Origin: a virus
Direction: 5' to 3' (one strand)
Length of the DNA: 64,000 bases
Virus record (IMG/VR): IMGVR_UViG_3300028394_000057
Coordinates: 1-64,000 of that record
Shown here: one piece after another, positions 2,432-53,423 of the stretch
Numbering within the stretch: position 1 is the first letter of the stretch
Layout of the letters: every line of letters starts with the position of its first letter
Made by a program: the position numbers and the translations under genes
The notes under the pieces: generated by a model
Database searches by the model: none
Seen by the model: the letters and a program-made list of their open reading frames with translations, nothing else
Told to the model about the DNA's origin: nothing

Positions 2432-4462
2432 ATGTCGGAATTTTTTTCTTTTACCCTACCAACAGATTTTGTAGAAAAATACAAATCATTGGAATCACCC
2501 TTTGGATTCGTGGATGCAGGTGGCAACGCACTAGGTGAAATTACTTTTGTTCGAACTTACTCACGAGTCAAAGAAGATGGAACTAAAGAACGCTGGTACG
2601 AAGTTGTACGCAGAGTTATTGAAGGTATGTACTCTGTCCAGAAAAACCATGCAAAAGAGAATCGTCTTCCATGGAATGACTATAAGGCACAGAAGTCAGC
2701 ACAAGAAGCATTTGACCGTATGTTTACTCTAAAATGGACACCTCCAGGTCGTGGAATGTGGACTTTTGGAACACCTCTCACAATGGAAAAACGTAACTCT
2801 GCTGCTTTACAAAACTGTGCTATGGTATCAACAAAGGACCTAGATAAAAATGACCCAGGTGCTTTGTTTGCTTGGGTTATGGATGCTCTTATGCTTGGTA
2901 TTGGAGTTGGCTTTGATACCCTTGGTAAAGACAAAAACTTCCCAATCTATGCACCAACAGAACCAGAGGTAGTCTATATTATCCCAGATACTCGTGAAGG
3001 CTGGGTAGAGGCAACACGTTTGCTAATTAACTCATATCTTCGTGCAGGTCAAAACATTCAAAAATTTGACTATTCAGAAATTCGTCTAGAAGGTGCTGCA
3101 ATTAAAGGTTTTGGTGGCGTAGCCTCTGGTCCTGCACCGCTAATCAAACTACATGAACGCATTAGTCATGTACTAAATGGTCGTGTTGGTGATAACCTAG
3201 ATGCTCGTGCCATTGTTGATTTAATTAACCTTATTGGTACTTGTGTTGTTTCAGGTAATGTCAGACGTTCTGCTACACTTGCACTTGGGGTAGACGGAGA
3301 TGAAGACTTCCTAAATTTAAAGAATCCAGAAGCATTCCCAGAGCGTAACTCGTATGACCCAAACAACCCAGGATGGGCTTGGATGTCAAACAACTCTATT
3401 GAGGCAAAAGTTGGAATGGATTATGAAAAATATGTAGACCGTATTGTTGACAATGGTGAGCCAGGATTTATCTGGCTTGATGTTGCTCGTAACTTTGGTC
3501 GTTTAGCAGACCCAGCAGATGGTAAGGACTATCGTGTAATGGGCTTTAATCCGTGTGCAGAACAGCCATTAGAGTCATACGAACTATGTACCCTTGTAGA
3601 AGTACACCTAAACCGTCACGAGTCTAAGGAAGACTTCCTGCGTACTCTTAAATTTGCTTACTTGTATGGAAAGACTGTTACCCTTCTTCCTACTCACTGG
3701 CAACAGACTAACGGTATCATGCAACGAAATCGTAGAATTGGAACATCTCTAACAGGCATTGCATCGTTCGCTGACGAGCACGGTCTACCTGCTACTCGTG
3801 AGTGGATGGACGAAGGATACAACAAGATTCGTTACTACGATAATAAGTATTCAGAGTGGATGTGTGTTCGTGAATCAATTCGTGTAACCACCGTTAAGCC
3901 ATCTGGTTCTGTATCAATTCTTTCAGGTGCTACCCCTGGTGTTCACTGGGGTCCAGGCGGAAAGTTTTATCTAAGAGCAATTCGTTTTGGTAACACAGAC
4001 CCAATGCTACACCTGTTTAAAGCGGCAGGGTATAAGATTGAACTAGACCTGGTTTCAGCAAATACTTCAGTAGTATACTTTCCAATTGCTTCGGGACAGA
4101 AGCGAGCAGAAAAAGATGTAACTCTATTTGAAAAGACAGCCCTTGCCGCTACCGCTCAGAAGTACTGGTCAGATAACGGTGTTTCAGTAACACTATCATT
4201 TGATACAACAAATGAAAAGCAGCACATTTCATCTGTTTTAAACATGTACGAAGGACAACTAAAGGCAGTATCCTTCTTGCCAATGGGAAACACAGTTTAT
4301 CCACAGCAACCATATTCTGAAATTACAGAAGATGAGTATGACTACTACATTGGTAGGTTAGCAAAGATTGATTTCTCTGCTATTTATGATGGAGTAGAAA
4401 ACTTAGAGGCACTTGGAGAAAGTTACTGCAGTACAGATTATTGTGAGATTAAAATTAAATAG
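2432..4462 (+). CDS. nrdJ: Class II (adenosylcobalamin-dependent) ribonucleoside-triphosphate reductase
   Basis: 676 residues; reduces ribonucleotides to deoxyribonucleotides using a B12-derived radical, supplying DNA precursors. It resembles the monomeric Lactobacillus-type enzyme. Visible residues: Cys129 in QNCAMVS (first redox Cys), NPCAEQ with radical Cys375 and Glu377, second redox Cys386 in ELCTL (11 residues after Cys375, as in the family), the TVKPSGSVS loop, and a C-terminal CSTDYC pair (Cys666, Cys671) that recycles the active-site disulfide. The start ATG follows GAAAGG. It has its own promoter and terminator, so it is an independent unit. Class II enzymes work with or without oxygen and need cobalamin from host or environment. 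Confidence 0.93.
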   Translation: MSEFFSFTLPTDFVEKYKSLESPFGFVDAGGNALGEITFVRTYSRVKEDGTKERWYEVVRRVIEGMYSVQKNHAKENRLPWNDYKAQKSAQEAFDRMFTLKWTPPGRGMWTFGTPLTMEKRNSAALQNCAMVSTKDLDKNDPGALFAWVMDALMLGIGVGFDTLGKDKNFPIYAPTEPEVVYIIPDTREGWVEATRLLINSYLRAGQNIQKFDYSEIRLEGAAIKGFGGVASGPAPLIKLHERISHVLNGRVGDNLDARAIVDLINLIGTCVVSGNVRRSATLALGVDGDEDFLNLKNPEAFPERNSYDPNNPGWAWMSNNSIEAKVGMDYEKYVDRIVDNGEPGFIWLDVARNFGRLADPADGKDYRVMGFNPCAEQPLESYELCTLVEVHLNRHESKEDFLRTLKFAYLYGKTVTLLPTHWQQTNGIMQRNRRIGTSLTGIASFADEHGLPATREWMDEGYNKIRYYDNKYSEWMCVRESIRVTTVKPSGSVSILSGATPGVHWGPGGKFYLRAIRFGNTDPMLHLFKAAGYKIELDLVSANTSVVYFPIASGQKRAEKDVTLFEKTALAATAQKYWSDNGVSVTLSFDTTNEKQHISSVLNMYEGQLKAVSFLPMGNTVYPQQPYSEITEDEYDYYIGRLAKIDFSAIYDGVENLEALGESYCSTDYCEIKIK

Positions 4463-17923: not shown

Positions 17924-20900
17924 ATGGCTGATATCAATTCCAATATAAAAGTTAATATAGATACGTCAGACGCTCTGGCACAACTAAAACTTTTACAGCA
18001 ACAGATATCAGCCTTTCAGCAAGCAATGCGAAATGCAGGAGCACAAAATGCTGCCGCTGCTGCTGCAATGCAGCAAAATCTTATAACCTCAATTAATGCT
18101 ACTGGAAAATTCAGAGCAAACGTTCAAACAATAAAAACAAGTGCAGAATCATTTACAGAATCTTTAGAAAAGAATAAATTTTCTATTGGAGAATACTTTA
18201 GATATGCTGGCGGTGCTTCAAAAACTTTCGGTAAATTGTTTAAATCAGAGTATGCAACTATAACTCAGGTAGCAAAAGAACGAGTAAAAGAACTACAAAC
18301 TCAATATATCAAACTTGGTCGTGATGCCACTGGCGCTATGAAGGCTATTGCTGTTAAGCCGCTATCACTTGACATGAATAATCTTGCAACTAAAACACAG
18401 TTAGCAGCACAAAAACAACAATTGTTTAATCAGTTAATGAAACAAGGTTCTACAAGTCTTCTAAATTTTGGTAAAAATACTCAATGGGCTGGTCGCCAAC
18501 TTATGGTTGGTTTTACAATTCCATTAACTATGTTAGGTTCTGCCGCTGCTAAAGCATACATGCAAATTGAAGCAGCATCTGTAAAATTTAGACGTGTTTA
18601 TGGTGACATGAATACAACTACAGAAGAAGCCAATAAGATGGTTAGGTCTGTACAAGGTCTTGCAAATGAATTTACAAAGTATGGTGTTGCAGTTGCAGAT
18701 ACTATGGATATGGCTGCCCAGGCAGCCGCTATGGGTAAAACTGGTGCAGACCTTATTGCACAAATAAATAATGCTGCAAAACTTTCTATCTTAGGTGGGG
18801 TAGACCAAACAAAGGCTTTAGAAACTACTATTAGTCTTACAAATGCTTTTGGAGTTGCAGCAGAAGATTTAGGTAAAAATATTGATTTCCTAAACGCAGT
18901 GGAAAACCAAACTACACTTAGTATCGATGATTTAACTACTGCTATTCCAAAGGCTGCCCCTGTTGTTAAACAACTTGGTGGAGATGTAAAAGATTTGGCA
19001 TTCTTTATGACAGCAATGAAAGAAGGTGGAATTAACGCATCTGAAGGTGCTAACGCAATTAAATCTGGTTTGGCATCATTAATTAATCCATCAGAAAAAG
19101 CATCAAAATTTCTTCAAGGATTTGGCATTAATGTTAAGGGTATTGTTGAAGCAGATAAAGGTAATCTAAAGAAAACAGTTGTTGATTTTGCTAAAGCACT
19201 AGACACTCTTGACCCACTAAACCGTGCTCGTGCTATTGAACAAATGTTTGGAAAGTTCCAATTTTCCAGACTTTCAACATTGTTCCAAAACGTAATTGCC
19301 GAAGGTAGCCAAGCATCTCAAGTAGCAGAATTATCTAAAAACTCAGCAGAAGAATTAGCAATCTTATCAGAACGAGAAATGAAAAAGATTTCAGATTCTC
19401 CAATGTTTAAGTTTCAAAAATCTATTCAAGACATGCAAGCCAAACTTGCACCTGTTGGCGAAGCATTCTTAAAGGCTGTCACACCAATCATTGAATTTGT
19501 TAGCAAAATACTAGATGGTTTTAATAGTATGGGCGAAGGTGCCAAAAACTTTGTTTCAATGCTAGTGTTGGCTGTTGCTGGTATCGGTCCTGTATTGCTT
19601 ATGACATTTGGTTTGATTGCAAACGGTGTAGCAAATATTATGAAACTATTTACAAATATGAAGGGTTTCATTAATAAGACAACAAAGCCATCAGATATTC
19701 TTGGTGAACAAACTAGTTATATGACTACAGAACAGTTGAAGGGTGCAACAGTTGCAGCATCTCTTGACCAAGCACATGCCAAACTTCGTCAAACATTTAC
19801 CTCTGAAAAAGCAGCATTAGATGAATTAACTAGGTCATATAGACAAGCAGTAGAAGCCCAACAGCAATATTCTGGTGTTCCAGGAATACCAACAGGAAAT
19901 CCAAATGCTGTTCCTAAAAGATATGCTAATGGTGTTTCTATGGTTCCTGGTCCAAGAGGTGCAGGAGATATTATTCCAGCCTTGCTGTCTCCAGGTGAAG
20001 CAGTTATACCAGCCAAACATGCACAAAAATATGCTCCAGTAATTGCTGGTATGGTTTCTGGTAATCTTCCAGGATTTGAAACTGGAACTACTGGTGTTGG
20101 TATTCGTCAAAGCACAATTGGACCACTTACTCAAAAACAAACCGAAGGAATTTTAAGAACTGGTAAAACACTTAAAGAAATTAGCGATGAAGTTTATGCT
20201 GGACCATATGGAGCAGTTCCTCCAGAACACTATGTAAGACAGGTTGAGCCAACTAGTGGGCACTCATTCCCTGCATTCCAAGTTGGTGGAATTTATGAAA
20301 AGGCTGATGGTAGTCAAGTATTTGTAAAACCACAAATGGATTTAACCTCAGCACTAGCAGAAGTTCGTGGTACTCAAATTGCAAGAGACGCACATCAATT
20401 AACAACACCTATGCAAAAAATTGTTACAATGATGGACCCAACAGACCCAGAAGGTATGCGTAAATTTATTGCTTTAGAATCACCACTAAATGAACAAATT
20501 GCTAAAATTTCTACATCATTTACAAAGGGACAATATTTTAAACAACTAGTTGCTTCTTTACTTCGTGGAGATAAAGACCTTGGTATTGGAAATCTTGGCG
20601 GAGATATCCTTGCTGATGTTGGTACTGCAGGTGTATTCCAAACAGCATCTGGTAAGCGTAAACTTGGCGGTAGCATTAATTCAATGGAAGAGCAAGCCAT
20701 CATTAATTTGCTTGGTGTAAAGGGCGGTGCTAAGAGATTCTTTGCTGAATCAACCTCAGATATTGCTAAGAACATGTCATCTGCTGAATATGATGCAACA
20801 ATGAAAGCAGAAATTCAAGCAGTAATGCCAAGGCTTCAAGCCACCATTGCTGGTTTTGGAAATCTTTCACCAGAAGAAAAAGCAGCATACGCAAATATGC

Positions 20901-23900
20901 AGCAAAGACTTCAAGCAGGTATGAGTGTTGATTGGGGTAAATATCAGGTTATGCATTCTGCTGTTCCTTCAAAAAAGTATGCTATGGGTGGTATGGTTCC
21001 AGGATATTTTGATGGAAAAGATAATGTTAAAAAAGAATCTGATTATACAACAGAAGAACTTTATAAACTATTAAACATTCAAGAAACACATGCTTTTGGT
21101 GAAATGAATATTAAAGACCCAAGAGTTCAAGCACAACTGCAAAAACAATTTAAAGAATCTACTCCAGAAGACTTTAATAAATTTAAAGTTCTTAGTAATC
21201 TTACTATTAGTTTGCCAGGTAAATTAAATCAATTAATTAAAGAAACTAGTAACGGTGTAAGCGGAACAATGTTTGGTCAAGCCTACAATGCTTTGCGTGG
21301 TAAATTAAGTAAAACTGCAAAAATGTCTGGTATTAAAAATCTATCAGATTCTCAATCTCTTGAAGATATTATTGGAACAAAATTTGCAGGAGAACCATTA
21401 ATTAAAGATTCAATATTTGCAAGAATAGTAGAGCAAAATATTAACGAACAAACTGCAAACACCTCTAGTATTGGTGCTGCAGCAAACTTAATTTGGGAAA
21501 GAACAAAACAAGTTGGTACAGTTAGACCTAAACGTGATGGTTTAGATGCACCTAGATGGAACGATTTGATTCGAACAATGTTGCAAAATGATGAACTTGT
21601 TTTGGTTCCAGGAAGTGAAAAAGGATTTCCAGTTGCAAATACTCCATTTGGTGGTCGTTTTGGAAGAATCAAAGCAGATGGTATTGGCTCAAGTAAGACT
21701 GCTGAAGGACGTGCTCTTCGTAAACTAGCACAAGATGCAGCAAATGCATGGGCTAGGTCAGGCAATAAAACAACACCTTTGCCTAGTGTACAAGATAATA
21801 ATGGAAATATAGTTCCATTAACTTGGAGAGATAATAGTGCAAAACCAGGAAGTTTTTCAACAGATGATTTTGCTGCCTATGACGATACAAGTAAAAAATA
21901 TGCATCAGACCTATCTTTTGCCCCTGGAGGATTTGATGTTCTTAAAAATCTTAAATTCTTTGCTGATGGTGGAATGGTTCCAGGTTATTCTGGAGGAACA
22001 GATAATATAGTTAAAAAACTATCTCTAAAAGATTTAGATTTTGCTGGAATGAAAAAGGATAAACTTGGTGCAGTGCCAGGTGGCTACAGAATAATTGATG
22101 GTAAAAAATATTATGTAAAAAATACTAAATCATCTACAGACGCATCAATAGAACTAATTATGTCTGAATTAAACCAGGCTATGCAAAATCCTGGTGCCCA
22201 TAAAATGAACATGTTTGGCGAAGGATTGGTTGGGAGTAAGTTTGTTCCAGGTTTAAAGAACACAATGGATTCCACTATGACTAATTGGTTGCAATCACAA
22301 CCAAACAAATTCTCAGCAGCAGAAACACTTATGGCGGCTGCTAAAGATTTCATTACAAAAGATGCTCCATTTAACGCAATGATTGGAAATGACGATGGTC
22401 ACACAAATAATATACTTTTTAATCCAAAAACTCGCAAATTTGTAAACCTTGACCTTGGGGTTAATTCAGCAAAAGATAAAGGTAAGTCAACAAAATTTAA
22501 TGAAATGGCACAAATTGGAATTCAAAACTTTAAATCTAGAATTATGATGGCTATTAGAACTGTTCTCTCTCCCAAAAAAGCCGATGTTCTTTCAAAAAAA
22601 TATGGAATTGATTTAAATGCATATTCTAAGGGGGATAAATTTTCAAATGAATATGACACATCTCCAGAAATTAGCAAAATGGCTAAACTGCTTGGTTTTG
22701 ATTTATCTAAACCAATATCCGAAAACCCAATTGATTTAAGAACCAACCCTTTTGTTTTGTCACTACTTGCTAAAAATCCAGAACTTGCAGAAATTTTAAA
22801 ACTACAAGTAACAAGTGGTGGAGTAAACCCACAAAGTGCTCTTTCACAAATCTTTAAAACTTTACAAAGTGCAAGCAAAAAACCAATTCTGAAATTTGCT
22901 GATGGTGTATTTTCAGTTCCAGGACCAAAGGGTGCTGGCGATGTAGTTCCTGCTATGCTATCTCCTGGTGAGGCTGTTATTCCTGCTGACCGTGCTGCTC
23001 AACACCGTGGACTAATTAAGGGAATGATTGCTGGTAATTTGCCAGGGTATGCAAAGGGAACTATAATTCCAGGATACGTTCATGGCAAAGATGAAGTTAA
23101 AAGAATACCAGGAATGCCAGCATCCGCAGTTACCGTTACTTCTTTTGATGCTGATAATCAGGCTATGCTTGCAGAACAATCAAAAGTTGTTGCTTTAGAA
23201 GAAGCCTTAGTTGCAAAAAAGACAGATTTAACTCGTTTAACTCGTGAACAAATTGAAGAGCAGATGGCAGTAGAGGATGACATCTACAGACAACTATTAG
23301 AAAAACAAGAAGAACTAAAGATGAAACATGTTCTTACTGAAGATGAAAGAAAGTTGCTAGAGTCAAACAAGCAAATTATGCTTAGAAAAGAAGAAGCCTT
23401 TAAACTTGAAAAGAATGTAATAGAAAAAGAAAAAAGAGGACTGTTTACAAGAAATGCTACGACTGGAAAAGTTCAAGGTCTGATGTATGGTCTTTCTGGA
23501 GCAGCAGGTCTTGCATCAACTGTGCCAGGTGCTGTAGGAGAAAGTGCACAGCAAATGCTTCCAGTTATTGGTGCTGCCACTGCCGCTATGTCTGTTATTC
23601 CTGGCTACGCTGGCATGATTGTTGGAGCAGGTGCAGCATTAGTTACAGCCTACATGCAAGTACAAGAGAGGTTAAACAAGATTAGAGATGAGGCATTGGC
23701 TCTGGGAACTGCTATGGGTTCATCTACAAAGTCTATTGATAAATTTGCGGAATTTGCCAAAACTGTTACTGGTAGTCAGACAATGGATAAACGTAGAGAA
23801 ACTAGTGCTGGCACTTTCTTTAATGTTGTTCAGGGTAAAACAACTTTTGGCGAAGCATATATGCAAGGAGATGCTGGAAAAGCCTTAGTAAAATCAGTTG

Positions 23901-26900
23901 GAGAATCAATTAAGGGTGGAGGATTAACTCAAGCAAAATCTATGATTGTAAATCAATTATCTACTGCTATTGCCAGCGGAGCAATGTCTCCTGCTCAGGC
24001 TAGAAGTATTGCATCAAATCTAGGTGCTCAACTAGGAGACATGTCTTTAGGTATTGAGGTTGCAGGAAAAATAACTGACCTTGTAGGTCCAAAAGGAGAA
24101 GACTTAAAGAAAGAACCTTTGCAAATAAGACTGCGTCTTGTTGCTGACTCTATGGAGCAGTTTAAGAAGCAAGCAGAAATTTCTAATGCTAACGCAACTG
24201 ATGCCGCAAAGAATGCAGGAACATCTGGTGCAGGTATTGGTATAGGTGCTGGTGCTGGTTTAGCGGCTGGCTTTGGTGTTGCTGGTGCAGGAAGCATAGT
24301 AGCAAATCTTGGCTCTACAGGAATCTTGGCAGGAATGGCTCTTGGAACTACAGCAGGTTCTGTAGTTCCAGTTATTGGAACTATTGCTGGAGCACTTGTA
24401 GGATTCTCGATTGCTGCAGTTCAACTGCAAGGAGATATTGCAAAAAATGCAGGGTATTTACAAGCAAGTCTAGGAAGTGCCTTATCTGTTCAACAACAAA
24501 TGGTTGACTCTTTAACAGTAGATTATGAAAAGAGAATAGCGTCAGCAAAGGCTGCTGGGGATACAGCAGAAGCCACTAGACTACAAAATCAGTACCTTGC
24601 TGACCAAGCAGAGTTATTAGACTTTAATAAAAAACAAACTCAAGAAATGTATGGTATTTTAAATGAACAAAGTACTGGCTTAGGGTTTATGTTAAATGCA
24701 CAAGTTGCAAACTTGGATACAGCAAGAGAAGGTTTGAAGAAAGCATTTGAAGGAACTGGGCAAGAGGTTCAGGCTAAACTTGCACAAGAACAGATTGATG
24801 CTATGTCAGGTTCTCTTGCACAAAAGACTATGCTTATGTCAGCAGTTGGTCAAAAACAAATAGGGCTTAACCAAATTGGAGTTGCACAAAAAGCGTTTGG
24901 TTCTGACCAAGCAGGAGCAGATACTCTGCAAACGCTTATGGAAAATAGCCCAACCGAACTAAACAGAACTCTTGGTCTAGCAGGAAACATGGCTGAAACA
25001 GAGCAAAAGAAATTTGTAATAGACATGAGTCTAAAAGACCCTATTCAAGCAAAGATAATGAATGATGCTGTAGAACTAGCACAAAAAACAACTGGCGTTT
25101 TCTTTGGAGAAAAGAAAACAGCGGAAGCAATTATGAGATTTGCTGTAGAAAATCCAGAAAAGATGCTAGAGTTTCAAGAAAACGTAACAGATTTAAAAAA
25201 TATACAAGGAACAACTTTTGATATTACAGTTGCACAAAAAATTCTTGGTCCAGATTTAGCAAAGGCTTTGGGAGAAAAAAGCGTTGGAGCATATTTTAAA
25301 AAGTATAACAAGCAAAACAAGATTGTGTTCTTATCTGAATTCCAGCAGGTAATGACAATGCTTGCAAAGGGTGATGAAGACATGCTTGCATCTTGGAGAT
25401 TGTGGAATGCTGAAAATGGTGGCAAAAAAACAATGGCTGATTACGCTGCCTACCAGTCTGACAGAACAGTTACTAGTCAGGGAGTCGACAATACAATAGT
25501 TCCTGGCACTGGTACCACTGGCGGTAGTGGTAATGGTCCAGAGAGTTCTTGGCTAGACCCTTTTGTTAAAAATATAAGGGATGCTGGAACATCGACTCAA
25601 AAATTAACAACTGGTTTTAATGATTCAGCAGCAGCACTTACAAAATTTGCGAATAAAGTACCAAATTTTATTGGTTTATTTACACAACTTAAGAAAGCAG
25701 GGGCTAGTGCAAAAATTATCGAGGCTGCACTTGGCGGTGATGAAGCCACAACAGCAAAATTGATTGATACAAAAACTGGACAATTAAAAGCAGGGGCTAA
25801 AAAAATTCTTGATGGAATTAGCAAAGCCATTAGAGAACAAAAAATGGTAGACTGGATGCTCCTTACAGGGGCAGGAAAAAGACAAAAGTATAACGATATG
25901 TATCAAGCAAACCTGGATGTTCTTAAAATTGATGAAGATAAAATTAATAAAACTTATGATGATAGAATTAAAGCATTAGATGAAATAAATACTCTTCAAG
26001 AAAAAAATACTGCTCAACAACAAAGCACTTTAACTATTGCAGATGCCTTATCTAAAGGAGACATTGCAGGGGCTGCTCGTGCCGCATTAGAAAAAACAAA
26101 ACAAGACACAGCATTTGCTATTGAACAACAAAAGATAAATCTAGAAAATGCTAGACAAACAGAACTTGGAAAACTTACAACAAATATTAATGGTGTTCAA
26201 ATGACAAGAGTAGAAATAGAAGAAAAGATTAGAATTAATGCAGAAAAAATTACTAAAAGTAAAGCAGAAGAATTAGAATCTGAGATTCGTATTGGTAAAT
26301 TAGCAGAAAAACGATTTAAAGCATACAAACCAGTTCCAGGTGTGTCCACTGGTGGCGGTGGTGGTGGCGGTGGCGGCAAAGCAGATACAAAACCCACACC
26401 AGATACAAAACCCACACCAGATACTAAGCCCACACCAGATACAAAACCCACACTAGATAATAAGCCCACACCAGATACAAAACCTAGTGGCGTAGTTGGT
26501 GACATTACAAGTTCTCCACAAGGCAAAGCATTTACAGCAGCACTCAAAGGTGCTCAGGATGTTACACCTGGTGCTTTAAAGGCTGCTCAGGATTATGCTA
26601 CTGCTAAGAAAAATGCAGGGGCATCAATGAGCGATGCTGCTGCAGCAAAGAAATTTGGTGGAAAAAATACTGCAGCATTTAAAACATGGAAAGCAAATCA
26701 AACAAAACTTGCTAAAGCATTAACAGCAGCACAGGATTACGGTATTGTCGATAGTTCTGGTAACGTTCTTACAGCAGACCAAGTTACTAATGCAAGTATT
26801 TATCAAAGATATGCAATGCTTAGTTCAAAGAGTGGTCAAGCAGATGCAGCAGAATCTTTAAAAGGTATTCCAGCAGAAATTGCTTCTAGGGCAAAATTGA

Positions 26901-27682
26901 TTAAAAATTCAAATAAAGATTTTGCAGCAGACAAAACAAAACTTGATGGAATGAAGAAAACATTTGAAAAAGCAGGTGGTTTATTGTATATGCTTCCAGG
27001 ATACTATCAAACATGGTTAAATACCTCAGATGCTTTAAGACCTACAACTCCTTTTGGAAAACTTATTGCAAAAGGTGCTAAACCAGAAGAACTTATAAAT
27101 CAAGCAACAAAAATGGCAACGAAGTTTGGTGAAATAGATAATTATAGAAAAGCACTTACAAGTGCTGGGTATACAGACTCGTTGCTTTTTCAGGCTAAAC
27201 TATTTGATAGTAATTATGGTCGTGATGGACAAACTTTAAAGCAAACATCCGATTTTGCATCTGGTCAAATGTTTAAGCCACATAAAGCCTATACAGGAAC
27301 AAATATTGGATATGGTAAAAACCAAATACTTCCTGACGCAGAAAACATGCTTAGATTTGGTAATCAATATTACGCTATGGGTGGTATGGTTTATGCAAAC
27401 AAGGGGCTTAAGGTTGCAGCAAGTAAGTATGCTCTTGGAACTGATACTATTCCTGCTATGCTTACCCCAGGAGAATTTGTAATTAAAAAATCAGCAGTGG
27501 ATTCAATTGGATTAAATAAACTTAATTCTATAAACTCTGGAACATTGTCATCTAATTCAGTGTATAATTATAGTATCAATGTTAATGTTAAATCAGATGC
27601 AAATGTAAACCAAATTGCAGATACTGTTATTAGACAAATTAAACAAATTGATTCACAAAGATTAAGGAGTGTCAGTATATAA
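17924..27682 (+). CDS. Giant tape measure protein with embedded kinase-like modules
   Basis: 3252 residues. Residues ~186-472 match the TP901-type tape measure core (AQAAAMGKTGADLIAQ, TAMKEGGINASEGANAIKSG); hydrophobic segments lie at ~541-570, ~1860-1914 and ~2102-2169. Linkers of the type GDIIPALLSPGEAVIP occur at ~673 and ~1659, with a C-terminal variant at ~3150. GGMVPGY-x-x-G-x-D linkers lie at ~1020 and ~1347, with a variant at ~1711. Between linkers are two kinase-like modules: Lys802/Glu813/Asp885/Asn890/Asp898, and Lys1399/Glu1415/Asp1491/Asn1496/Asp1510 with IGNDDGHTNN and NLDLG. A DTKPTP repeat lies at 2821-2854. The protein sets tail length and enters the cell with DNA; the embedded modules may be delivered effectors (inference). 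The start follows the chaperone by 18 bases with a weak ribosome site. Confidence 0.9.
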   Translation: MADINSNIKVNIDTSDALAQLKLLQQQISAFQQAMRNAGAQNAAAAAAMQQNLITSINATGKFRANVQTIKTSAESFTESLEKNKFSIGEYFRYAGGASKTFGKLFKSEYATITQVAKERVKELQTQYIKLGRDATGAMKAIAVKPLSLDMNNLATKTQLAAQKQQLFNQLMKQGSTSLLNFGKNTQWAGRQLMVGFTIPLTMLGSAAAKAYMQIEAASVKFRRVYGDMNTTTEEANKMVRSVQGLANEFTKYGVAVADTMDMAAQAAAMGKTGADLIAQINNAAKLSILGGVDQTKALETTISLTNAFGVAAEDLGKNIDFLNAVENQTTLSIDDLTTAIPKAAPVVKQLGGDVKDLAFFMTAMKEGGINASEGANAIKSGLASLINPSEKASKFLQGFGINVKGIVEADKGNLKKTVVDFAKALDTLDPLNRARAIEQMFGKFQFSRLSTLFQNVIAEGSQASQVAELSKNSAEELAILSEREMKKISDSPMFKFQKSIQDMQAKLAPVGEAFLKAVTPIIEFVSKILDGFNSMGEGAKNFVSMLVLAVAGIGPVLLMTFGLIANGVANIMKLFTNMKGFINKTTKPSDILGEQTSYMTTEQLKGATVAASLDQAHAKLRQTFTSEKAALDELTRSYRQAVEAQQQYSGVPGIPTGNPNAVPKRYANGVSMVPGPRGAGDIIPALLSPGEAVIPAKHAQKYAPVIAGMVSGNLPGFETGTTGVGIRQSTIGPLTQKQTEGILRTGKTLKEISDEVYAGPYGAVPPEHYVRQVEPTSGHSFPAFQVGGIYEKADGSQVFVKPQMDLTSALAEVRGTQIARDAHQLTTPMQKIVTMMDPTDPEGMRKFIALESPLNEQIAKISTSFTKGQYFKQLVASLLRGDKDLGIGNLGGDILADVGTAGVFQTASGKRKLGGSINSMEEQAIINLLGVKGGAKRFFAESTSDIAKNMSSAEYDATMKAEIQAVMPRLQATIAGFGNLSPEEKAAYANMQQRLQAGMSVDWGKYQVMHSAVPSKKYAMGGMVPGYFDGKDNVKKESDYTTEELYKLLNIQETHAFGEMNIKDPRVQAQLQKQFKESTPEDFNKFKVLSNLTISLPGKLNQLIKETSNGVSGTMFGQAYNALRGKLSKTAKMSGIKNLSDSQSLEDIIGTKFAGEPLIKDSIFARIVEQNINEQTANTSSIGAAANLIWERTKQVGTVRPKRDGLDAPRWNDLIRTMLQNDELVLVPGSEKGFPVANTPFGGRFGRIKADGIGSSKTAEGRALRKLAQDAANAWARSGNKTTPLPSVQDNNGNIVPLTWRDNSAKPGSFSTDDFAAYDDTSKKYASDLSFAPGGFDVLKNLKFFADGGMVPGYSGGTDNIVKKLSLKDLDFAGMKKDKLGAVPGGYRIIDGKKYYVKNTKSSTDASIELIMSELNQAMQNPGAHKMNMFGEGLVGSKFVPGLKNTMDSTMTNWLQSQPNKFSAAETLMAAAKDFITKDAPFNAMIGNDDGHTNNILFNPKTRKFVNLDLGVNSAKDKGKSTKFNEMAQIGIQNFKSRIMMAIRTVLSPKKADVLSKKYGIDLNAYSKGDKFSNEYDTSPEISKMAKLLGFDLSKPISENPIDLRTNPFVLSLLAKNPELAEILKLQVTSGGVNPQSALSQIFKTLQSASKKPILKFADGVFSVPGPKGAGDVVPAMLSPGEAVIPADRAAQHRGLIKGMIAGNLPGYAKGTIIPGYVHGKDEVKRIPGMPASAVTVTSFDADNQAMLAEQSKVVALEEALVAKKTDLTRLTREQIEEQMAVEDDIYRQLLEKQEELKMKHVLTEDERKLLESNKQIMLRKEEAFKLEKNVIEKEKRGLFTRNATTGKVQGLMYGLSGAAGLASTVPGAVGESAQQMLPVIGAATAAMSVIPGYAGMIVGAGAALVTAYMQVQERLNKIRDEALALGTAMGSSTKSIDKFAEFAKTVTGSQTMDKRRETSAGTFFNVVQGKTTFGEAYMQGDAGKALVKSVGESIKGGGLTQAKSMIVNQLSTAIASGAMSPAQARSIASNLGAQLGDMSLGIEVAGKITDLVGPKGEDLKKEPLQIRLRLVADSMEQFKKQAEISNANATDAAKNAGTSGAGIGIGAGAGLAAGFGVAGAGSIVANLGSTGILAGMALGTTAGSVVPVIGTIAGALVGFSIAAVQLQGDIAKNAGYLQASLGSALSVQQQMVDSLTVDYEKRIASAKAAGDTAEATRLQNQYLADQAELLDFNKKQTQEMYGILNEQSTGLGFMLNAQVANLDTAREGLKKAFEGTGQEVQAKLAQEQIDAMSGSLAQKTMLMSAVGQKQIGLNQIGVAQKAFGSDQAGADTLQTLMENSPTELNRTLGLAGNMAETEQKKFVIDMSLKDPIQAKIMNDAVELAQKTTGVFFGEKKTAEAIMRFAVENPEKMLEFQENVTDLKNIQGTTFDITVAQKILGPDLAKALGEKSVGAYFKKYNKQNKIVFLSEFQQVMTMLAKGDEDMLASWRLWNAENGGKKTMADYAAYQSDRTVTSQGVDNTIVPGTGTTGGSGNGPESSWLDPFVKNIRDAGTSTQKLTTGFNDSAAALTKFANKVPNFIGLFTQLKKAGASAKIIEAALGGDEATTAKLIDTKTGQLKAGAKKILDGISKAIREQKMVDWMLLTGAGKRQKYNDMYQANLDVLKIDEDKINKTYDDRIKALDEINTLQEKNTAQQQSTLTIADALSKGDIAGAARAALEKTKQDTAFAIEQQKINLENARQTELGKLTTNINGVQMTRVEIEEKIRINAEKITKSKAEELESEIRIGKLAEKRFKAYKPVPGVSTGGGGGGGGGKADTKPTPDTKPTPDTKPTPDTKPTLDNKPTPDTKPSGVVGDITSSPQGKAFTAALKGAQDVTPGALKAAQDYATAKKNAGASMSDAAAAKKFGGKNTAAFKTWKANQTKLAKALTAAQDYGIVDSSGNVLTADQVTNASIYQRYAMLSSKSGQADAAESLKGIPAEIASRAKLIKNSNKDFAADKTKLDGMKKTFEKAGGLLYMLPGYYQTWLNTSDALRPTTPFGKLIAKGAKPEELINQATKMATKFGEIDNYRKALTSAGYTDSLLFQAKLFDSNYGRDGQTLKQTSDFASGQMFKPHKAYTGTNIGYGKNQILPDAENMLRFGNQYYAMGGMVYANKGLKVAASKYALGTDTIPAMLTPGEFVIKKSAVDSIGLNKLNSINSGTLSSNSVYNYSINVNVKSDANVNQIADTVIRQIKQIDSQRLRSVSI
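26384..26485 (+). repeat. 18-bp tandem repeat coding DTKPTP in tape measure
   Basis: About 5.7 copies of an 18-base unit, GATACAAAACCCACACCA with variants, preceded by a run of nine glycine codons. It encodes a Pro/Lys/Thr-rich spacer. Confidence 0.9.
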
Positions 27683-36708: not shown

Positions 36709-37016
36709 TGGCTGACCGCAAAGACCGCATGGCTTTGCTTAGTCGCTACAGTAAACTGCATACTGCAAAGTACCAAGAAAAGCCATCCCTAAATTTAAAT
36801 GTAGAGCAGTGGGCAGCAGATGCCTTGATTGCTTCTTATGGTATTCCCGAATGCTATGACCTGCTAGAATATTACTTTGATGTATCAGAAAATCCATCAT
36901 GGAAATACTTTGCAAATTATGCAGACAACATTGTTTACAAACGTAAACAAGTACAACAAGATTTAAAAGAACGCCAAGAGCGTAGACTGAAAGCGAAAGA
37001 GTGGCTAAATGAATAA
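36708..37016 (+). CDS. Small helical protein preceding DnaB-like helicase (possible helicase loader)
   Basis: 102 residues, all-helical, basic C terminus (KRKQVQQDLKERQERRLKAK). The central NVEQWAADALIASYGIPECYDLLEYYFD is followed by a WKYFANYADNIVYKRK helix. It overlaps the helicase gene by 8 bases, so the two are translated together, and phages often encode a loader next to their replicative helicase. No loader family motif is recognised, so the role is inferred from linkage and composition. Confidence 0.65.
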   Translation: MADRKDRMALLSRYSKLHTAKYQEKPSLNLNVEQWAADALIASYGIPECYDLLEYYFDVSENPSWKYFANYADNIVYKRKQVQQDLKERQERRLKAKEWLNE

Positions 37017-38229
37017 CACAGAATCGAAACTAATCTCTGCTGTATTAGCAGACAAACAAGTGCACGTTTTGCTACAAGCAAATGTAGAAAACATACTAAG
37101 AACTCACAATGACATCTGGACATTCATTCGTAACTATTCAGAAGCCAATGGCACAGTGCCACCAACATCATTAGTTGTAGATAAATTTCGTGACTTTATT
37201 CCTGCCGAAGGTATTGGTGCCACCAAGTATCACCTAGAAGAACTACAGGCTGAGTTCCTGAATGATAGTCTAAAGGATGTTCTTAGGACTACCGCTTCAG
37301 ATGTTCAGGCAGGTCAGGGAACCAAAGCATTAGAAGACTTAATCCAGAAGACATCAGAACTAAAAAAGAATACAGCAGTTATCCGTGACATTGATGCCAC
37401 TGATATTGATTCTGCTGTTGCTTACTTTGAAAACCTTGCTCGTCAGAATGAACTAGGTTCGATTGGTATCAAAACTGGTTTGCCAGGATTTGACAACTAT
37501 CTTCCTGCTGGTATTACTCCAGGTCAGTTGGGTGTGTTTCTTGCTTATCCAGGAATTGGTAAGTCTTGGTTCGCTCTTTACATGGCAGTACAGGCATGGA
37601 AGCAGGGCAAGTCACCACTAGTAATATCACTCGAAATGTCAGAGACGGAGGTTCGTAACCGTGTGTTTGCTATCATGGGTGAAGGTCTTTGGTCACATCG
37701 CAAACTTAGCAATGGGCAGGTAGAGATTGATGACCTGAAGCGTTGGCACAAGAAAGAACTTGAGGGTAAGCCAGAATTTCATATCATCTCTAATGACAAC
37801 GGTGGAGAAGTAACTCCATCAGTTATTCGTGGTAAGATTGACCAATATAAACCTGACCTAGTTATTGTTGACTATCTACAGTTGATGTCTCCAAATCAGA
37901 AATCAGATAATGAGACTGTTCGTATGAAAAACCTTTCTCGTGAACTTAAATTGATGTCTATTGGTGAAGAGATTCCTATTATTGCTATCTCTTCTGCTAC
38001 ACCAGATGACGTTACTAAGTTAGATACAGTTCCTACTCTTGGTCAAACTGCTTGGTCACGCCAAATTGCGTACGATGCTGACTGGGTTCTTGCTCTTGGT
38101 CGTGCCACCAACTCAGACATTCTAGAGTGTGTGTTCCGTAAGAACCGTAATGGGTTTATGGGAGAATTCTTGGTTCAGGTTGATTTTGACAAAGGTTACT
38201 ATCGTTATAAGGATTTTGAAGATAACTAG
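37009..38229 (+). CDS. dnaB: DnaB-like replicative helicase
   Basis: 406 residues; unwinds the fork and carries primase. The N-terminal ~110 residues are helical, as in DnaB. The RecA-type core begins at GLPGFDNYLPAGITPGQLGV and has Walker A AYPGIGKSW at ~178-186, LVISLEMSETEVRNR (H1a), DLVIVDYLQLMSP (Walker B), and an arginine-finger-like region late in the chain. It is slightly shorter than bacterial DnaB (~450). Start ATG lies inside an 8-base overlap with the upstream small gene. The primase gene lies one gene downstream, giving a helicase-primase set. Confidence 0.9.
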   Translation: MNNTESKLISAVLADKQVHVLLQANVENILRTHNDIWTFIRNYSEANGTVPPTSLVVDKFRDFIPAEGIGATKYHLEELQAEFLNDSLKDVLRTTASDVQAGQGTKALEDLIQKTSELKKNTAVIRDIDATDIDSAVAYFENLARQNELGSIGIKTGLPGFDNYLPAGITPGQLGVFLAYPGIGKSWFALYMAVQAWKQGKSPLVISLEMSETEVRNRVFAIMGEGLWSHRKLSNGQVEIDDLKRWHKKELEGKPEFHIISNDNGGEVTPSVIRGKIDQYKPDLVIVDYLQLMSPNQKSDNETVRMKNLSRELKLMSIGEEIPIIAISSATPDDVTKLDTVPTLGQTAWSRQIAYDADWVLALGRATNSDILECVFRKNRNGFMGEFLVQVDFDKGYYRYKDFEDN

Positions 38230-40188: not shown

Positions 40189-43100
40189 ATGAGTTATGCT
40201 GGACTGCACGTTCACACTCACTACTCGCTATTTGATGGAATAGCAACACCACAAGAATATGTGGACAGGGCAATCGAAATTGGAATGCCAGCCATCGCAA
40301 TCACAGACCACGGTTCGCTATCTGGACATCGTGAAATGTATCGTACCGCTATTGAAAAGGGTATAAAACCAATTCTTGGTGTTGAAGGATATATTGCACA
40401 AGACCGCTTTGACCAGAGAGATAAAACAGAGCGTGAAGACACACCACTAAACCCTGTATACAATCACTTAATTATTCTTGCTAAGAATGAAAAAGGTCTA
40501 GAGAATCTAAACAAACTAAATGAGATTGCTTGGACTGAGGGTTTCTATAAGAAGCCTCGTATGGATTGGGAATCTCTAGAAAAATATAAAGAAGGACTTA
40601 TCATTACTTCTGGATGTCTATCTGGTTTCTTGGCTAAGGCTATTGAAGCAGATGACCTTGCTGCTGCTAAAGAACATTTGCAGTGGGCTAAGAAAACATT
40701 TGGCGATGACTACTACATTGAAGTTATGCCACACAATCCACCAGAGATTAATAAAACTATTCTTGCTCTTGCAGATGAGTTTGGTATCAAGCCTATCGTT
40801 ACTCCAGATTGTCACCACGCTAGTCCAGAACAGCGTGAGATTCAGGAACTTAAACTAATCCTAAATACTTATTCAAACAAAGTTCAGAAAGATGCAAACT
40901 TTGCTGGTACTCAAAAGTATGACAACCTTATGGATAAGTTAGATTACTTGTATGGGGCTGACCGTCAGATTACTTTTAGAGATTATGAAATTCATTTGCT
41001 TTCTGATGAAGAGATGCACAAGTCTATGGAATCGCAGGGTATTGTAAGACAAGATATGTATGATAATACTATTGAGATTATGAACAAGGTTGAAGATTAC
41101 AATATCAAAGACCACTTAGACTTGCTACCAGCACAGTATCAGAATCCAGACCAAGAACTTTATGAACTTGCTATGGAGGGTTTGGTTGCTCGTGGTGTAG
41201 GTGCTGACCCTGCATATCACATTAGGGCTGAAGAAGAACTTCAAATCATTAAGGATAAAAACTTTGCTCCTTACTTCCTAGTTGTTCGTAACATGATTAA
41301 CTGGGCTAAGAAAGAAGGCATTATGGTTGGTCCAGGACGTGGTTCGTCTGCTGGTTCTCTAGTTTGTTATGCGTTAGGGATTACTGATATTGACCCTATT
41401 GAGCATGGTCTTCTTTTCTTCCGTTTTATCAATCCAGAACGTAATGACTTTCCAGATATTGATACAGATATTCAAGATTCAAGACGTGAAGATGTCAAAG
41501 ATTATCTAGTTAGACAGTATAGGCATGTTGCTTCTATTGCCACATTCCTTGAGTTCAAGGGTAAAGGTATGATTAGAGATATTGCTCGTGTGTTAAACAT
41601 TCCACTACCAGATGTGAACAAGGTTCTCAAACTGGTTGATGACTGGGATGATTATTTAAGGTCTAAGTCTACTCAGGAGTTCCGTGAGAAGTATCCAGAG
41701 ATTGAACTTTATGGTGAACAAATGCGTGGTCGTATTCGTGGTACTGGTATTCACGCTGCTGGTGTAGTTACTGCTAAAGAGCCTATCTTTAAGTATGCAC
41801 CACTAGAGACTAGAACAACTCCAGGTAGCAAGGAACGTATTCCAGTAGTAGCAGTAGACATGGAAGAAGCAGAACGTATTGGTCTAATTAAGATTGATGC
41901 TTTGGGTCTTAAGACTTTATCTGTTATTCAGGATACTTTGGCTATCATTAAGGAACGTACTGGTACTGATGTTGACTTATATAAACTAGATATGAAAGAT
42001 GCAAATGTATATCGCATGCTTTCTGATGGCTATACCAAGGGCGTATTCCAATGTGAAGCAACACCTTATACTAACTTGCTTGTTAAAATGGGTATCAAAA
42101 ACTTTTCAGAACTTGCTGCTTCTAACGCTTTGGTTCGTCCAGGTGCTATGAATACAATTGGTAAAGATTATGTTGCTCGTAAACATGGTAAGCAAAATAT
42201 TGATTACAAGCATGAAGTGTTAAAAGCATTCACACAAGAAACCTATGGATGTATTCTATATCAGGAACAGGTTATGCTTGCCTGTGTGGAACTTGGTGGA
42301 ATGACAATGGCTGAAGCGGATAAGGTTCGTAAGATTATTGGTAAGAAGAAAGATGCTAAAGAATTTGATGTGTTCAAAGACAAGTTCGTTGCTGGTGCTT
42401 CTAGATTCTTAACTCCAAATGCTGCTCAAGACCTTTGGCATGACTTCGAAGCCCACGCTGGATACTCGTTTAACAAGTCTCACGCTGTGGCTTACTCAAC
42501 AGTTTCTTACTGGACTGCATGGCTAAAGCACAATTATCCTATTGAGTTTATGTATTCATTGCTCAAGAATGAAAGTGATAAAGATGCTCGTACTGAATAT
42601 TTGATTGAAGCAAAACGTATGGGTATTCCTGTTCGCTTGCCACACATCAACGAATCAGATGTTGATTTTAAAATCGAGGGTAAAGGAATTCGCTTTGGAC
42701 TATCATCTATTAAGTTTATTAGTGATAACATTGCTAATAAGTATCTTGCCGCTAGACCTTTTGGTTCTTACAAAGAACTAGAAGAGTTTACATTTGGTAA
42801 GGGCAATGGTGTTAACAGTCGTGCATTACAGGCTCTACGCCTTGTAGGAGCCGCTACTTTTGAAGACCAACCTAGAAACGATGAAGAAGTTCGTGAGAAC
42901 CTTTACGAGTATCTTAACCTACCAGAATTTAATACATCAATTCCACAACACTATCACGCATTCATTAATGACGTGGAAGAGTACGAAGAAAAGGGTGCAT
43001 ACATTCTAATGGGGATGATTAAGAACATCAAGCGTGGTGATGGCTGGTCAAGAGTAGAACTACTAGATAAAACTGGTAGCACTGGAATCTTTGATGAAGC

Positions 43101-43470
43101 AAACACAACTATTGAAGCAGGTAAGACCTATATAGTTCTTGCAAGTGATAATAGAATTGTTACTGCTATTCCAGCAGATGAAACTAAAGGTAATTTGTCT
43201 GGGCTAATTAAGATTCTTAACTATCGTCAGTTGCCATACAAAGATGATGAACTATTTGTAGTGTCATTTAAGCCAAGGGTAACTAAGGCTGGTAAAAAGA
43301 TGGCTTCTCTCGTTCTGGCAGACACTAATCGTGATATGCACAGCGTAACAGTATTTCCAACAGCATTCCCAAGGGCTTACATGAAGATTGATGAAGGAAA
43401 TGTGTATAAATTCTCTTTAGGTAAAACTAAAGATGGAACAACAATTATGGAAGATGTAGAAAATGTTTGA
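40189..43470 (+). CDS. dnaE: DNA polymerase III alpha subunit (DnaE-type) with PHP domain
   Basis: 1093 residues; replicative polymerase of the C family. The N-terminal PHP domain shows the full metal-site pattern: LHVHTHYSLFDG, AITDHGSL, GVEGYI and VTPDCHHAS, suggesting an intact 3'-5' exonuclease. The palm has PGRGSSAGSLVCY, catalytic Asp425 and Asp427 in PDIDTDIQD, and Asp570 in IKIDALGLKTL. C-terminal regions include the helix-hairpin-helix area (IDALGLKT onward) and an OB-like segment near 950-1060. It is slightly shorter than bacterial DnaE (~1160). AAGGAAAAT precedes the ATG. It overlaps the MazG gene by 8 bases. Confidence 0.95.
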   Translation: MSYAGLHVHTHYSLFDGIATPQEYVDRAIEIGMPAIAITDHGSLSGHREMYRTAIEKGIKPILGVEGYIAQDRFDQRDKTEREDTPLNPVYNHLIILAKNEKGLENLNKLNEIAWTEGFYKKPRMDWESLEKYKEGLIITSGCLSGFLAKAIEADDLAAAKEHLQWAKKTFGDDYYIEVMPHNPPEINKTILALADEFGIKPIVTPDCHHASPEQREIQELKLILNTYSNKVQKDANFAGTQKYDNLMDKLDYLYGADRQITFRDYEIHLLSDEEMHKSMESQGIVRQDMYDNTIEIMNKVEDYNIKDHLDLLPAQYQNPDQELYELAMEGLVARGVGADPAYHIRAEEELQIIKDKNFAPYFLVVRNMINWAKKEGIMVGPGRGSSAGSLVCYALGITDIDPIEHGLLFFRFINPERNDFPDIDTDIQDSRREDVKDYLVRQYRHVASIATFLEFKGKGMIRDIARVLNIPLPDVNKVLKLVDDWDDYLRSKSTQEFREKYPEIELYGEQMRGRIRGTGIHAAGVVTAKEPIFKYAPLETRTTPGSKERIPVVAVDMEEAERIGLIKIDALGLKTLSVIQDTLAIIKERTGTDVDLYKLDMKDANVYRMLSDGYTKGVFQCEATPYTNLLVKMGIKNFSELAASNALVRPGAMNTIGKDYVARKHGKQNIDYKHEVLKAFTQETYGCILYQEQVMLACVELGGMTMAEADKVRKIIGKKKDAKEFDVFKDKFVAGASRFLTPNAAQDLWHDFEAHAGYSFNKSHAVAYSTVSYWTAWLKHNYPIEFMYSLLKNESDKDARTEYLIEAKRMGIPVRLPHINESDVDFKIEGKGIRFGLSSIKFISDNIANKYLAARPFGSYKELEEFTFGKGNGVNSRALQALRLVGAATFEDQPRNDEEVRENLYEYLNLPEFNTSIPQHYHAFINDVEEYEEKGAYILMGMIKNIKRGDGWSRVELLDKTGSTGIFDEANTTIEAGKTYIVLASDNRIVTAIPADETKGNLSGLIKILNYRQLPYKDDELFVVSFKPRVTKAGKKMASLVLADTNRDMHSVTVFPTAFPRAYMKIDEGNVYKFSLGKTKDGTTIMEDVENV

Positions 43471-43801
43471 TGAAGTAGCAAAAGAACTGCACGAAGCCGC
43501 AGTAGAAAAAGGTTTTTGGGGCATTGCCTATAACAATGATGACAAGGAATCCTTGGATATATTTATGACTAAACAACTAATGATGATTGTGTCAGAGGCG
43601 GTAGAGGTTATGGAAGCAATTCGAAAGTCCAAAGGACCAGAAGAAGTAGCAGATGAAATGGCTGACATTATTATTCGCACTCTTGACTTGTACGCAGGTC
43701 TCCGTGAGTTTGAGTATGTCAATGGTAGCCTTGACGATGCTTTTGAAAAGAAGACTGGCTACAATAAGTCTAGACCAGAAAGACATGGGGTTCGTTTCTA
43801 A
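43463..43801 (+). CDS. mazG: MazG-like nucleotide pyrophosphohydrolase
   Basis: 112 residues, all-alpha NTP-PPase. Metal ligands are visible as Glu45-x2-Glu48 (SEAVEVMEAI) and Glu65-x2-Asp68 (ADEMADIIIRTLDLY), the ExxE...ExxD signature. These enzymes hydrolyse NTPs or dNTPs to monophosphates; phage versions may clean the nucleotide pool or alter alarmone levels, which is not decided here. It is wedged between polymerase (8-base overlap) and recombinase (one-base overlap), so it is co-translated with the replication genes. Confidence 0.85.
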   Translation: MFDEVAKELHEAAVEKGFWGIAYNNDDKESLDIFMTKQLMMIVSEAVEVMEAIRKSKGPEEVADEMADIIIRTLDLYAGLREFEYVNGSLDDAFEKKTGYNKSRPERHGVRF

Positions 43802-44808
43802 TGACAACTATCGAAGAAGCAATGGCAGCACTAGACCCACGCATTCGTAAGCGTTTGACTAATGGTGTTGGATTTAAAACAGAATATCAGGCTACCCCTA
43901 GTTTTGGACTTAACCGTGCACTTAATGGTGGACTACCTATGGGCAGACAGGTATTGGTTTGGGGAAGCAAGTCTTCTGCTAAGTCTTCACTTTGTCTACA
44001 GATGGTTGCTCTGGCTCAGGAAGAAGGCAAGTTGTGTGCTTGGATTGATGCAGAGATGGCTTACTCTGAAGACTGGGCTAAAAGACTTGGGGTAGACACA
44101 GATAAACTTATTGTGTCACAAGCCAGAACTATTAATGAGATGGTTGATGTGGGAACTAACCTAATGAACGCAGGGGTAGACTTGATTGTAATTGATTCAA
44201 TTACATCACTGCTACCTGCTATCTATTTTGAAAAGGATACTGATGAACTTAAACAATTGGAAAATACTAAACAGATTGGTGCGGAGTCTAGAGATTTTAG
44301 TAACGCTTGGAAGATGCTTAATTATGCTAATAATAAAGTTAAGCCAACCCTTATGGTTCTTATTTCGCAATCTCGTAACAATATTTCTGCTATGTATACT
44401 AGTCAACAGCCTTCAGGCGGTCAGGCTACTAAGTTTTATTCATCAACGGTTATCAAGTTATTCTCTTCCGAATCAGACAATCAAGCAATTAAAGGCAAGA
44501 TTGCAATTGGCGATAAACTCATTGAAGAAAAGATTGGTAGGAAAGTTCGTTGGGAGATTCAATTTAGCAAAACATCGCCAGCCTTCCAATCTGGAGAATA
44601 CGATTTTTATTTCCGAGGCGATGTTGGCATTGATAGCATTGGTGATTTGGTTGATACTGCAGAGATGATGGGTATTGTAGAACGCACAGGTGCTTGGTAT
44701 ATCCTACCAGATGGAACTAAATTACAGGGTAGAGATAAGTTTGTGGCTCGTGTTCGTGAAGACTTGGACCTACAAGATGATATTAAGGCTAGGGTTGTTC
44801 GTGGGTAA
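43801..44808 (+). CDS. recA: RecA/UvsX-like recombinase with variant Walker A
   Basis: 335 residues; strand exchange for recombination-dependent replication. Features in order: GLNRALNGGLPMGR, Walker A GSKSSAKSS with Lys61 but Ala60 in place of the usual glycine, WIDAEMAYSEDWAKRLGVD (catalytic Glu), DLIVIDSITSLLP (Walker B), VLISQSRNN then PSGGQATKFYSS (loop L2 region). It lacks the basic C-terminal domain of bacterial RecA in recognisable form. It overlaps both neighbours by 1 and 8 bases. Confidence 0.88.
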   Translation: MTTIEEAMAALDPRIRKRLTNGVGFKTEYQATPSFGLNRALNGGLPMGRQVLVWGSKSSAKSSLCLQMVALAQEEGKLCAWIDAEMAYSEDWAKRLGVDTDKLIVSQARTINEMVDVGTNLMNAGVDLIVIDSITSLLPAIYFEKDTDELKQLENTKQIGAESRDFSNAWKMLNYANNKVKPTLMVLISQSRNNISAMYTSQQPSGGQATKFYSSTVIKLFSSESDNQAIKGKIAIGDKLIEEKIGRKVRWEIQFSKTSPAFQSGEYDFYFRGDVGIDSIGDLVDTAEMMGIVERTGAWYILPDGTKLQGRDKFVARVREDLDLQDDIKARVVRG

Positions 44809-52742: not shown

Positions 52743-52815
52743 TGGGCATTAACTCAGTTGGCAGAGTGTTCGACTGTTAATCGAAATGTCCCTGGTTCGA
52801 GCCCAGGATGCCCAG
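52743..52815 (+). tRNA. tRNA-Asn (GTT)
   Basis: 73 bases fold as a full cloverleaf: acceptor TGGGCAT with ATGCCCA, D arm ACTC/GAGT, anticodon stem TTCGA/TCGAA with loop CTGTTAA (anticodon GTT), T arm CCTGG-TTCGAGC-CCAGG, discriminator G as usual for Asn. CCA is not encoded. Confidence 0.92.
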
Positions 52816-52819
52816 CAAA

Positions 52820-52891: not shown

Positions 52892-52899
52892 CTGATGAA

Positions 52900-52908
52900 T
52901 GCTATAAT
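52900..52908 (+). promoter_or_regulatory. Extended -10 promoter for endopeptidase operon
   Basis: TGCTATAAT (TATAAT 52903-52908) just after the tRNA pair, about 50 bases before the M23 start. Confidence 0.6.
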
Positions 52909-52957
52909 AGTATTACTATGAGCAATCGTAGAATACATCTTGAAAGGAAGTATAATT

Positions 52958-53422: not shown

Positions 53423-53423
53423 A

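Follow-up and report, generated by a model that had tools for sequence, protein, structure and literature searches.

A conserved kinase-like domain and a rare, probably kinase-like cassette within a phage tape measure protein

The stretch of DNA analysed here (the window; 64,000 nucleotides, positions 1 to 64,000 of IMG/VR virus record IMGVR_UViG_3300028394_000057) harbors a phage tape measure protein of 3252 amino acids (aa), encoded by a single open reading frame (ORF) at 17924..27682 on the + strand, on which all features within the gene are given. The protein matches PF10145 (E 2e-24) and, over residues 199-556, TIGR01760 (E 1.1e-29), the TP901-type tape measure family, whose curated cut-off of 28.8 bits it exceeds with 103.6 bits and which is also passed by 10 of the 10 relatives tested. 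Tape measures are virion proteins, and these profile matches bear out the identification of the carrier made earlier from the letters alone (the sequence-only reading). Two domains of this protein, designated module 1 (residues 760-1023; 20201..20992) and module 2 (residues 1360-1650; 22001..22873), are the subject of this study. The presence of two kinase-like modules in one tape measure, as proposed by the sequence-only reading, is the best reading of the data, with module 1 supported by a confident structural model and module 2 by family conservation and profile likeness, its own model being poor.

Module 1 carries seven catalytic-type positions (Lys802, Glu813, Asp883, Asp885, Asn890, Asp898, and Gly900) that are invariant in 81/81 tape measures (62 distinct), a set composed of the window protein and its best-matching 80 relatives, 48 of the 81 being complete. 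Of 261 candidate stretches in the contigs of one viral collection, 235 encode a relative of module 1. The AlphaFold2 model of module 1 (predicted local distance difference test score, pLDDT, 83.9; predicted template modelling score, pTM, 0.85) matched CotH (Z 11.7 over 218 residues), CtkA (10.6), PI4K II-beta (10.3), HipA (9.6), and Fam20C (9.2) in VIA-align comparisons. Matches to CotH, CtkA, PI4K II, HipA, and Fam20 structures extended over ~175-220 residues at Z 8.2-11.7, but with a sequence identity of 7-17%. The PDB matches given by Foldseek, 794 in all, were weak (best E 7e-3, none <=0.001), with kinases at the top. No kinase family in Pfam, NCBIfam, or PHROGs matched module 1, and neither module has a Pfam match. 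A two-lobed kinase fold with catalytic residues is well supported for module 1.

Within module 2, positions 22064-22480 correspond to residues 1381-1519 of the 17924-27682 ORF. Translation places YYVKN at residues 1396-1400 (including Lys1399), IGNDDGHTNN at 1487-1496, and NLDLG at 1508-1512, all as previously read, and the Asp-to-Asn spacing of five is indeed common to both modules (Asp885-Asn890 and Asp1491-Asn1496). In alignments of the module 2 family with 8 (A4), 14 (A6), and 16 (A7) rows, the putative beta-3 lysine Lys1399 (22118..22120), Asn1489, and the proposed catalytic aspartate Asp1491 (22394..22396) are kept throughout (8/8 in A4, 14/14 in A6, and 16/16 in A7). Glu1415, originally taken as the motif glutamate, occupies a variable position and gives way to Glu1410 (22151..22153), the conserved helix-C glutamate, which is kept in 15/16 rows of A7 and 13/14 of A6, with L049 having Pro. 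The proposed metal-binding Asn1496 (22409..22411) is invariant in A7 (16/16), but kept in 2/14 rows of A6 and 3/8 of A4. Asp1510 of NLDLG (22451..22453), the proposed DxG metal aspartate, is kept in 14/14 rows of A6 and 8/8 of A4 and lies opposite gaps in A7, where the column is taken by Asp1518 (22475-22477), the alternative DxG aspartate; A7 misplaces this aspartate relative to A4 and A6. Gly1512 is invariant in A6 (14/14), and His1493 is found in just 2/14 or 2/16 rows. Because the loop is short and poorly conserved, the assignments of Asn1496 and Asp1510 depend on the alignment chosen.

Shuffling of the tape measure protein produced the strict loop G-N-x-D-x-H-x-x-N...[LIVMF]-D-x-G in 0/20,000 cases, a relaxed loop pattern in 414/20,000, and the whole Lys-Glu-Asp-Asn-Asp layout in 15/3,000. 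These patterns were written post hoc, with the sequence already seen, and conservation across the family is therefore the sounder criterion. Six module 2 loci emerged from a scan of viral contigs and 16, overlapping the first set, from a profile-guided one. Two contigs among these loci carry near-identical tape measures cut within module 2, and the remaining loci share 34-50% identity over the N-terminal lobe (N-lobe) and are located in other long proteins. A loop pattern search returned three stretches, with L049 alone lying in a long ORF; this distant relative is also the only one to reach the PI3/PI4 kinase family PF00454 (E 8.8e-4; 19.7 bits, under the cut-off of 27.1). A family scan with L049 recovered only L049 itself, and scanning the genomes of bacteria and archaea with alignment A1 gave 111 pattern matches and no relative.

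Comparison of the module 2 and module 1 families by hhalign gave E values of 1.8e-4 to 2.7e-4 at a probability of 42-48%. In a profile rerun, the local scores against module 1 (34.5 for A7 and 31.9 for A5) exceeded 150/150 column shuffles each (maxima 20.5 and 22.1), and reversed profiles scored 14.7 (A7) and 15.1 (A5). When a global alignment was forced with A7, each of Lys, Glu, Asp1491, and Asn1496 fell opposite its equivalent in module 1, the DxG position pairing with Asp1518 and not Asp1510, while forced alignments of module 1 with A5 and A6 shrank to 24-27 columns. The low-confidence model of module 2 best matched RIO2, APH, and PRPK (Z <=6.7), and among the 50 structures listed, 47 are titled kinases or aminoglycoside phosphotransferases, the other three being pre-40S particle chains whose name is not displayed. 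In a viral structure library, two proteins of uncultured phages matched this model with an E value reaching 0.001, one an ADP-ribosyltransferase and the other fused to a portal, followed by GodonK gp67 (3.1e-3) and Sixama gp73 (6.4e-3), with a coronavirus-like polyprotein at rank 6; several of the same proteins, including GodonK gp67, are also matched by the module 1 model. Collectively, module 2 is likely a kinase-like domain. The sequence-only reading had credited it with the clearer catalytic loop and regarded the two modules as independent; module 1 is instead the better supported of the two, and although two modules do occur in one protein, their N-lobes appear homologous by profile comparison. 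The assignment of module 2 to a FAM20/PI3K family is not established, with no match to PF00454.

Relatives of the module 2 family also occur in isolated phages. A tblastn search with the metagenomic relative L040 returned 19 records (RefSeq duplicates included) with 33-47% identity to L040, from phages of Gordonia (11), Pseudomonas (3), Aeromonas, Morganella, Enterobacter, and Yersinia, and from an Actinomycetia phage. They include gp67 of Gordonia phage GodonK, Sixama gp73, Forza gp78, Phendrix gp66, Pseudomonas phage Dolphis gp117, and others, of which GodonK gp67 and Sixama gp73 are the proteins also matched by the module 2 model. However, these Gordonia and Pseudomonas phage proteins are not tape measures. 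In each of four Gordonia phage genomes, the gene comes directly after that of the portal, and 4/19 records are annotated as ADP-ribosyltransferase. Their catalytic loop also differs, reading N-W-D with a longer stretch to the Asn. Direct tblastn searches of phages with module 2 gave three records at E 0.5-0.6, unannotated or annotated as epimerase, and those with module 1 gave no record. In Actinomycetia phage DSL-LC01 (L134/L137), positions 52800-62669 of the record encode an unannotated multidomain protein of 3289 aa with a module-2-like domain, downstream of the portal gene.

Both modules lie in a region that may be a cargo block, introduced after the N-terminal core of the tape measure and ahead of a long C-terminal part, and bounded by repeated Gly/Pro-rich linkers. 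The left edge is marked by the first VPGPxGAGDxxPALLSPGEAVIP repeat (~residues 670-703; 19931..20032) and the right edge by the second VPGPKGAGDVVPAMLSPGEAVIP repeat (~residues 1661-1694; 22904..23005), with copies in the tape measure at residues 690, 1681 and, as PGEFVI, 3182. Module 2 itself is flanked by the GGMVPGY linker, part of the glycine/proline linker GGMVPGYSGGTDN (21968..22006) that forms a cassette boundary, and by the second VPGPKGAGD...PGEAVIP repeat. Between the modules, a middle domain (residues 1024-1346; 20993..21961) without a Pfam match is detectable in 18/81 tape measures; it is fast-evolving, with 25-43% identity in relatives beyond the closest two, and has no family match. 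In 11 selected tape measures that each contain the repeat twice, the length of the block is 679-1397 aa, as against 1862-2345 aa for everything outside it; the N-terminus is shorter or cut in two of the 11 (L055 and L064). Without its block, the window tape measure would comprise 2261 aa. Two Streptomyces phages of Stanwilliamsviridae, Wofford and Coruscant, have tape measures that resemble it in the N-terminal core (29-30% identity), but are 2084 and 2133 aa long and lack both module 1 (no match at E 10) and the PGEAVI repeat. The insertion of the block is proposed on position and length, because homology to these proteins in the C-terminal part was not detected.

Comparisons among relatives reveal the exchange of cassettes within this block. 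The DNA of L052 is 91.7% identical to the window through gene base 4076, at the glycine/proline linker, after which L052 carries two other cassettes before similarity resumes at base 4971, at the second repeat, with 75% identity. Cassette-by-cassette BLAST across the tape measures detected module 2 in 3/81 (the window, L008, and L058), an acid-phosphatase-like HAD cassette in 17/81 (PF03767, E 8.7e-17 in the copy tested), and other cassettes without family assignment in 2 to 7 of 81 each. Module 1 is standard in this tape measure family, whereas module 2 is a rare, exchangeable cassette. In L058, the start of module 2 occupies another position of the array with 95.5% DNA identity, the rest having 81.6%; L058 is identical to the window after base 4161, and the differences at 4083, 4114, 4152, and 4161 speak against a plain copy of the window's strain. 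L008 and L058 share the same metagenome number, and both contigs end at the identical base within module 2, a sign of sequence common to coexisting strains or of an assembly branch point. The placement of module 2 in L058 is possibly an assembly join and is not relied on alone. Other cassettes of the block (in L058, L060, L055, and L061) include a repeated 'KW' domain without family assignment (3/81, with up to three copies) and two small helical ones. Three cassettes look ADP-ribosyltransferase-like by eye, but none has a Pfam match, and the one searched in PDB gave no result.

The block structure bears on what module 2 might do. It could be a pseudokinase or a structural spacer with a kinase-like fold, serving tail length, chaperone binding, or solubility with no phosphotransfer, as tape measures tolerate length change of the extent seen in the 11 proteins above, and as Asn1496 and Asp1510 are not firmly aligned and His1493 is rare. 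However, the Lys, Glu, and catalytic Asp positions are retained in distant relatives, the companion module 1 keeps all seven catalytic-type positions, and enzyme signatures such as the HAD cassette would be superfluous in spacers, so that a spacer seems unlikely. Alternatively, module 2 may be an active kinase that is not injected and instead acts on itself, the tail chaperones, or the tube while tails are being assembled in the cell that produces the phage. Its location within a structural protein made late is compatible with such a role, delivery being a matter of inference; yet a rare and exchangeable domain sharing its slot with unrelated domains is unlike an assembly factor, and its relatives reside in multidomain ADP-ribosyltransferase-annotated or portal-adjacent proteins, a class proposed to be injected in the available text of PMC5512222. 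An assembly kinase is thus distinctly improbable.

We favor, with a probability of roughly 60%, the reading that module 2 is an injected effector kinase, one of two kinase-like domains in an exchangeable cargo block of the tape measure. In this scenario, the tape measure would thread unfolded through the tail tube and bring along the domains of the block, which would refold once inside the envelope or cytoplasm of the newly infected cell. Module 2 would then bind ATP via Lys1399/Glu1410 and, early in infection, transfer phosphate by means of Asp1491, Asn1496, and Asp1510 (or Asp1518) to a host or phage target.

Several observations weigh against this reading. The AlphaFold2 model of module 2 is poor (pLDDT 47.8; pTM 0.39; no residue >=70), and its best Z of 6.7 falls below the structure-comparison noise level of 8, low-confidence models being able to match meaninglessly. 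Pfam, NCBIfam, and PHROGs gave no kinase family match for module 2; PF00454 (PI3/PI4 kinase), PF07804 (HipA_C), and PF08757 (CotH) are absent from its matches up to E 1 or 10, the latter two having no match anywhere in record G000. The sequence-only reading had named as evidence against itself the absence of a profile match to any kinase-like fold together with a predicted structure lacking an ATP pocket; no direct kinase profile match was obtained, while the model is too poor to show a pocket-less structure. The hhalign match to module 1 covers the N-lobe only (26-35 columns in most comparisons), and since significant pairwise similarity to relatives is likewise confined to the N-lobe (query residues 1-119 at most), the catalytic loop of module 2 rests on multiple alignment. 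L049, whose loop comes closest among the relatives, was retrieved by a pattern derived from the module 2 loop itself and hence offers no independent support for it. Direct tblastn with module 2 recovered none of the phage relatives found with L040, so the link to isolated phages passes via metagenomic relatives. C-terminal homology of the window protein to the Streptomyces phage tape measures was, as noted, not detected. Against PDB sequences, the module 1 profile found no kinase (best E 0.042), module 2 as a single sequence matched cell-wall-repeat proteins only (E 0.22-0.41), and the module 2 family profile matched the surface-layer protein 1l0q (E 2.1e-6, profile positions 19-83) and no kinase. 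We read this last match as a strand-motif resemblance, but count it as unfavorable all the same.

The surface-layer match covers the DGKKYYVK strand region and, together with the missing kinase profile match and the poor model, is what would be expected if module 2 were not a kinase, its DGKKYYVK being a common beta-hairpin or beta-propeller repeat and its loop a chance resemblance. However, Glu1410, Asn1489, and Asp1491 are conserved outside the strand, the order of strands and helices in the weak model suits a kinase N-lobe followed by a helical lobe, the N-lobe profile match to module 1 lies above all shuffles, and the strict loop was never produced by shuffling. Such a chance resemblance is therefore quite unlikely, and an injected effector kinase remains the preferred explanation. 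A broader and more tentative proposal, to which we give slightly less than even odds, is that the tape measures of this family are polymorphic effector carriers, in which a fixed kinase (module 1) is combined with exchangeable enzyme cassettes, the swaps taking place at repeated linkers and injection occurring upon first contact. The array of cassettes would then comprise a second kinase, a HAD phosphatase, possible ADP-ribosyltransferases, and others.

Kinases in multidomain phage proteins and cell-wall enzymes in tape measures are already known. Iyer et al. 2017 (PMC5512222) described kinases in phage polyvalent proteins predicted to be injected, and the term 'tape measure' is absent from the text of that article. 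As described there, polyvalent proteins resemble the present system in having several enzyme domains per long phage protein, with kinases and ADP-ribosyltransferase-type partners, in their proposed injection, and in the suggested cassette-like recombination. With regard to their multi-enzyme character, the window protein would contribute two kinase-like modules, and its relatives combine module 1 with a Pfam-confirmed HAD domain. However, according to the same text, the polyvalent kinases are without the whole C-terminal subdomain and are found chiefly in (pro)phages of Verrucomicrobia-Chlamydia and Bacteroidetes. In the module 1 model, long helices follow the catalytic region, which argues against such a loss in module 1, and the carrier here is the tape measure itself. 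The mycobacteriophage TM4 tape measure likewise contains an enzymatic motif, that of a peptidoglycan hydrolase, which aids infection, but its target is the cell wall, it is not a kinase, and the accessible portion of the report does not describe it as an exchangeable block (PMC1796659). Sle1-type effectors of actinobacterial contractile injection systems share a tape-measure-related carrier with diverse exchangeable effector domains, but belong to cellular injection systems and have a C-terminal helical domain, and the word 'kinase' is absent from the text describing them (PMC13277306). Among the matches listed from the open-licence literature, no report of kinase domains inside tape measures was found; PMC8876498 and PMC6102473 name both a kinase and a tape measure, in the text available as separate proteins.

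With regard to the wider setting of the window, comparison of portal proteins places Streptomyces phages of the Stanwilliamsviridae nearest among isolated phages, at 44-45% identity. The tape measure core is matched by 332 phage records, with those of Streptomyces and Gordonia most frequent, and a megablast search with the first 24 kb of the window gave no phage record. Because the portal and the tape measure core match Streptomyces/Gordonia phages, an actinobacterial host is plausible. The phage also carries genes for a ribonucleotide reductase (2432-4462), a DnaB-like helicase (37009-38229), DNA polymerase III alpha (40189-43470), and RecA (43801-44808), and a PA14 domain protein (50178-51968; PF07691, E 8.6e-9) is encoded amid late genes.

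These findings raise the prospect that the ruler of the phage tail may also serve to convey enzymes that act on the bacterium under infection. If this is true, a conserved kinase-like domain combined with exchangeable cargo would let phages deliver enzymes with the very first molecule entering the cell, and the tail-length ruler and the host-takeover arsenal would be one molecule. The cargo block opens questions about the passage of folded domains through the tail tube, the share of the cargo in tail length, and the first host targets to be phosphorylated. In addition, it hints at a naturally occurring example of how tape measures might be loaded with cargo.

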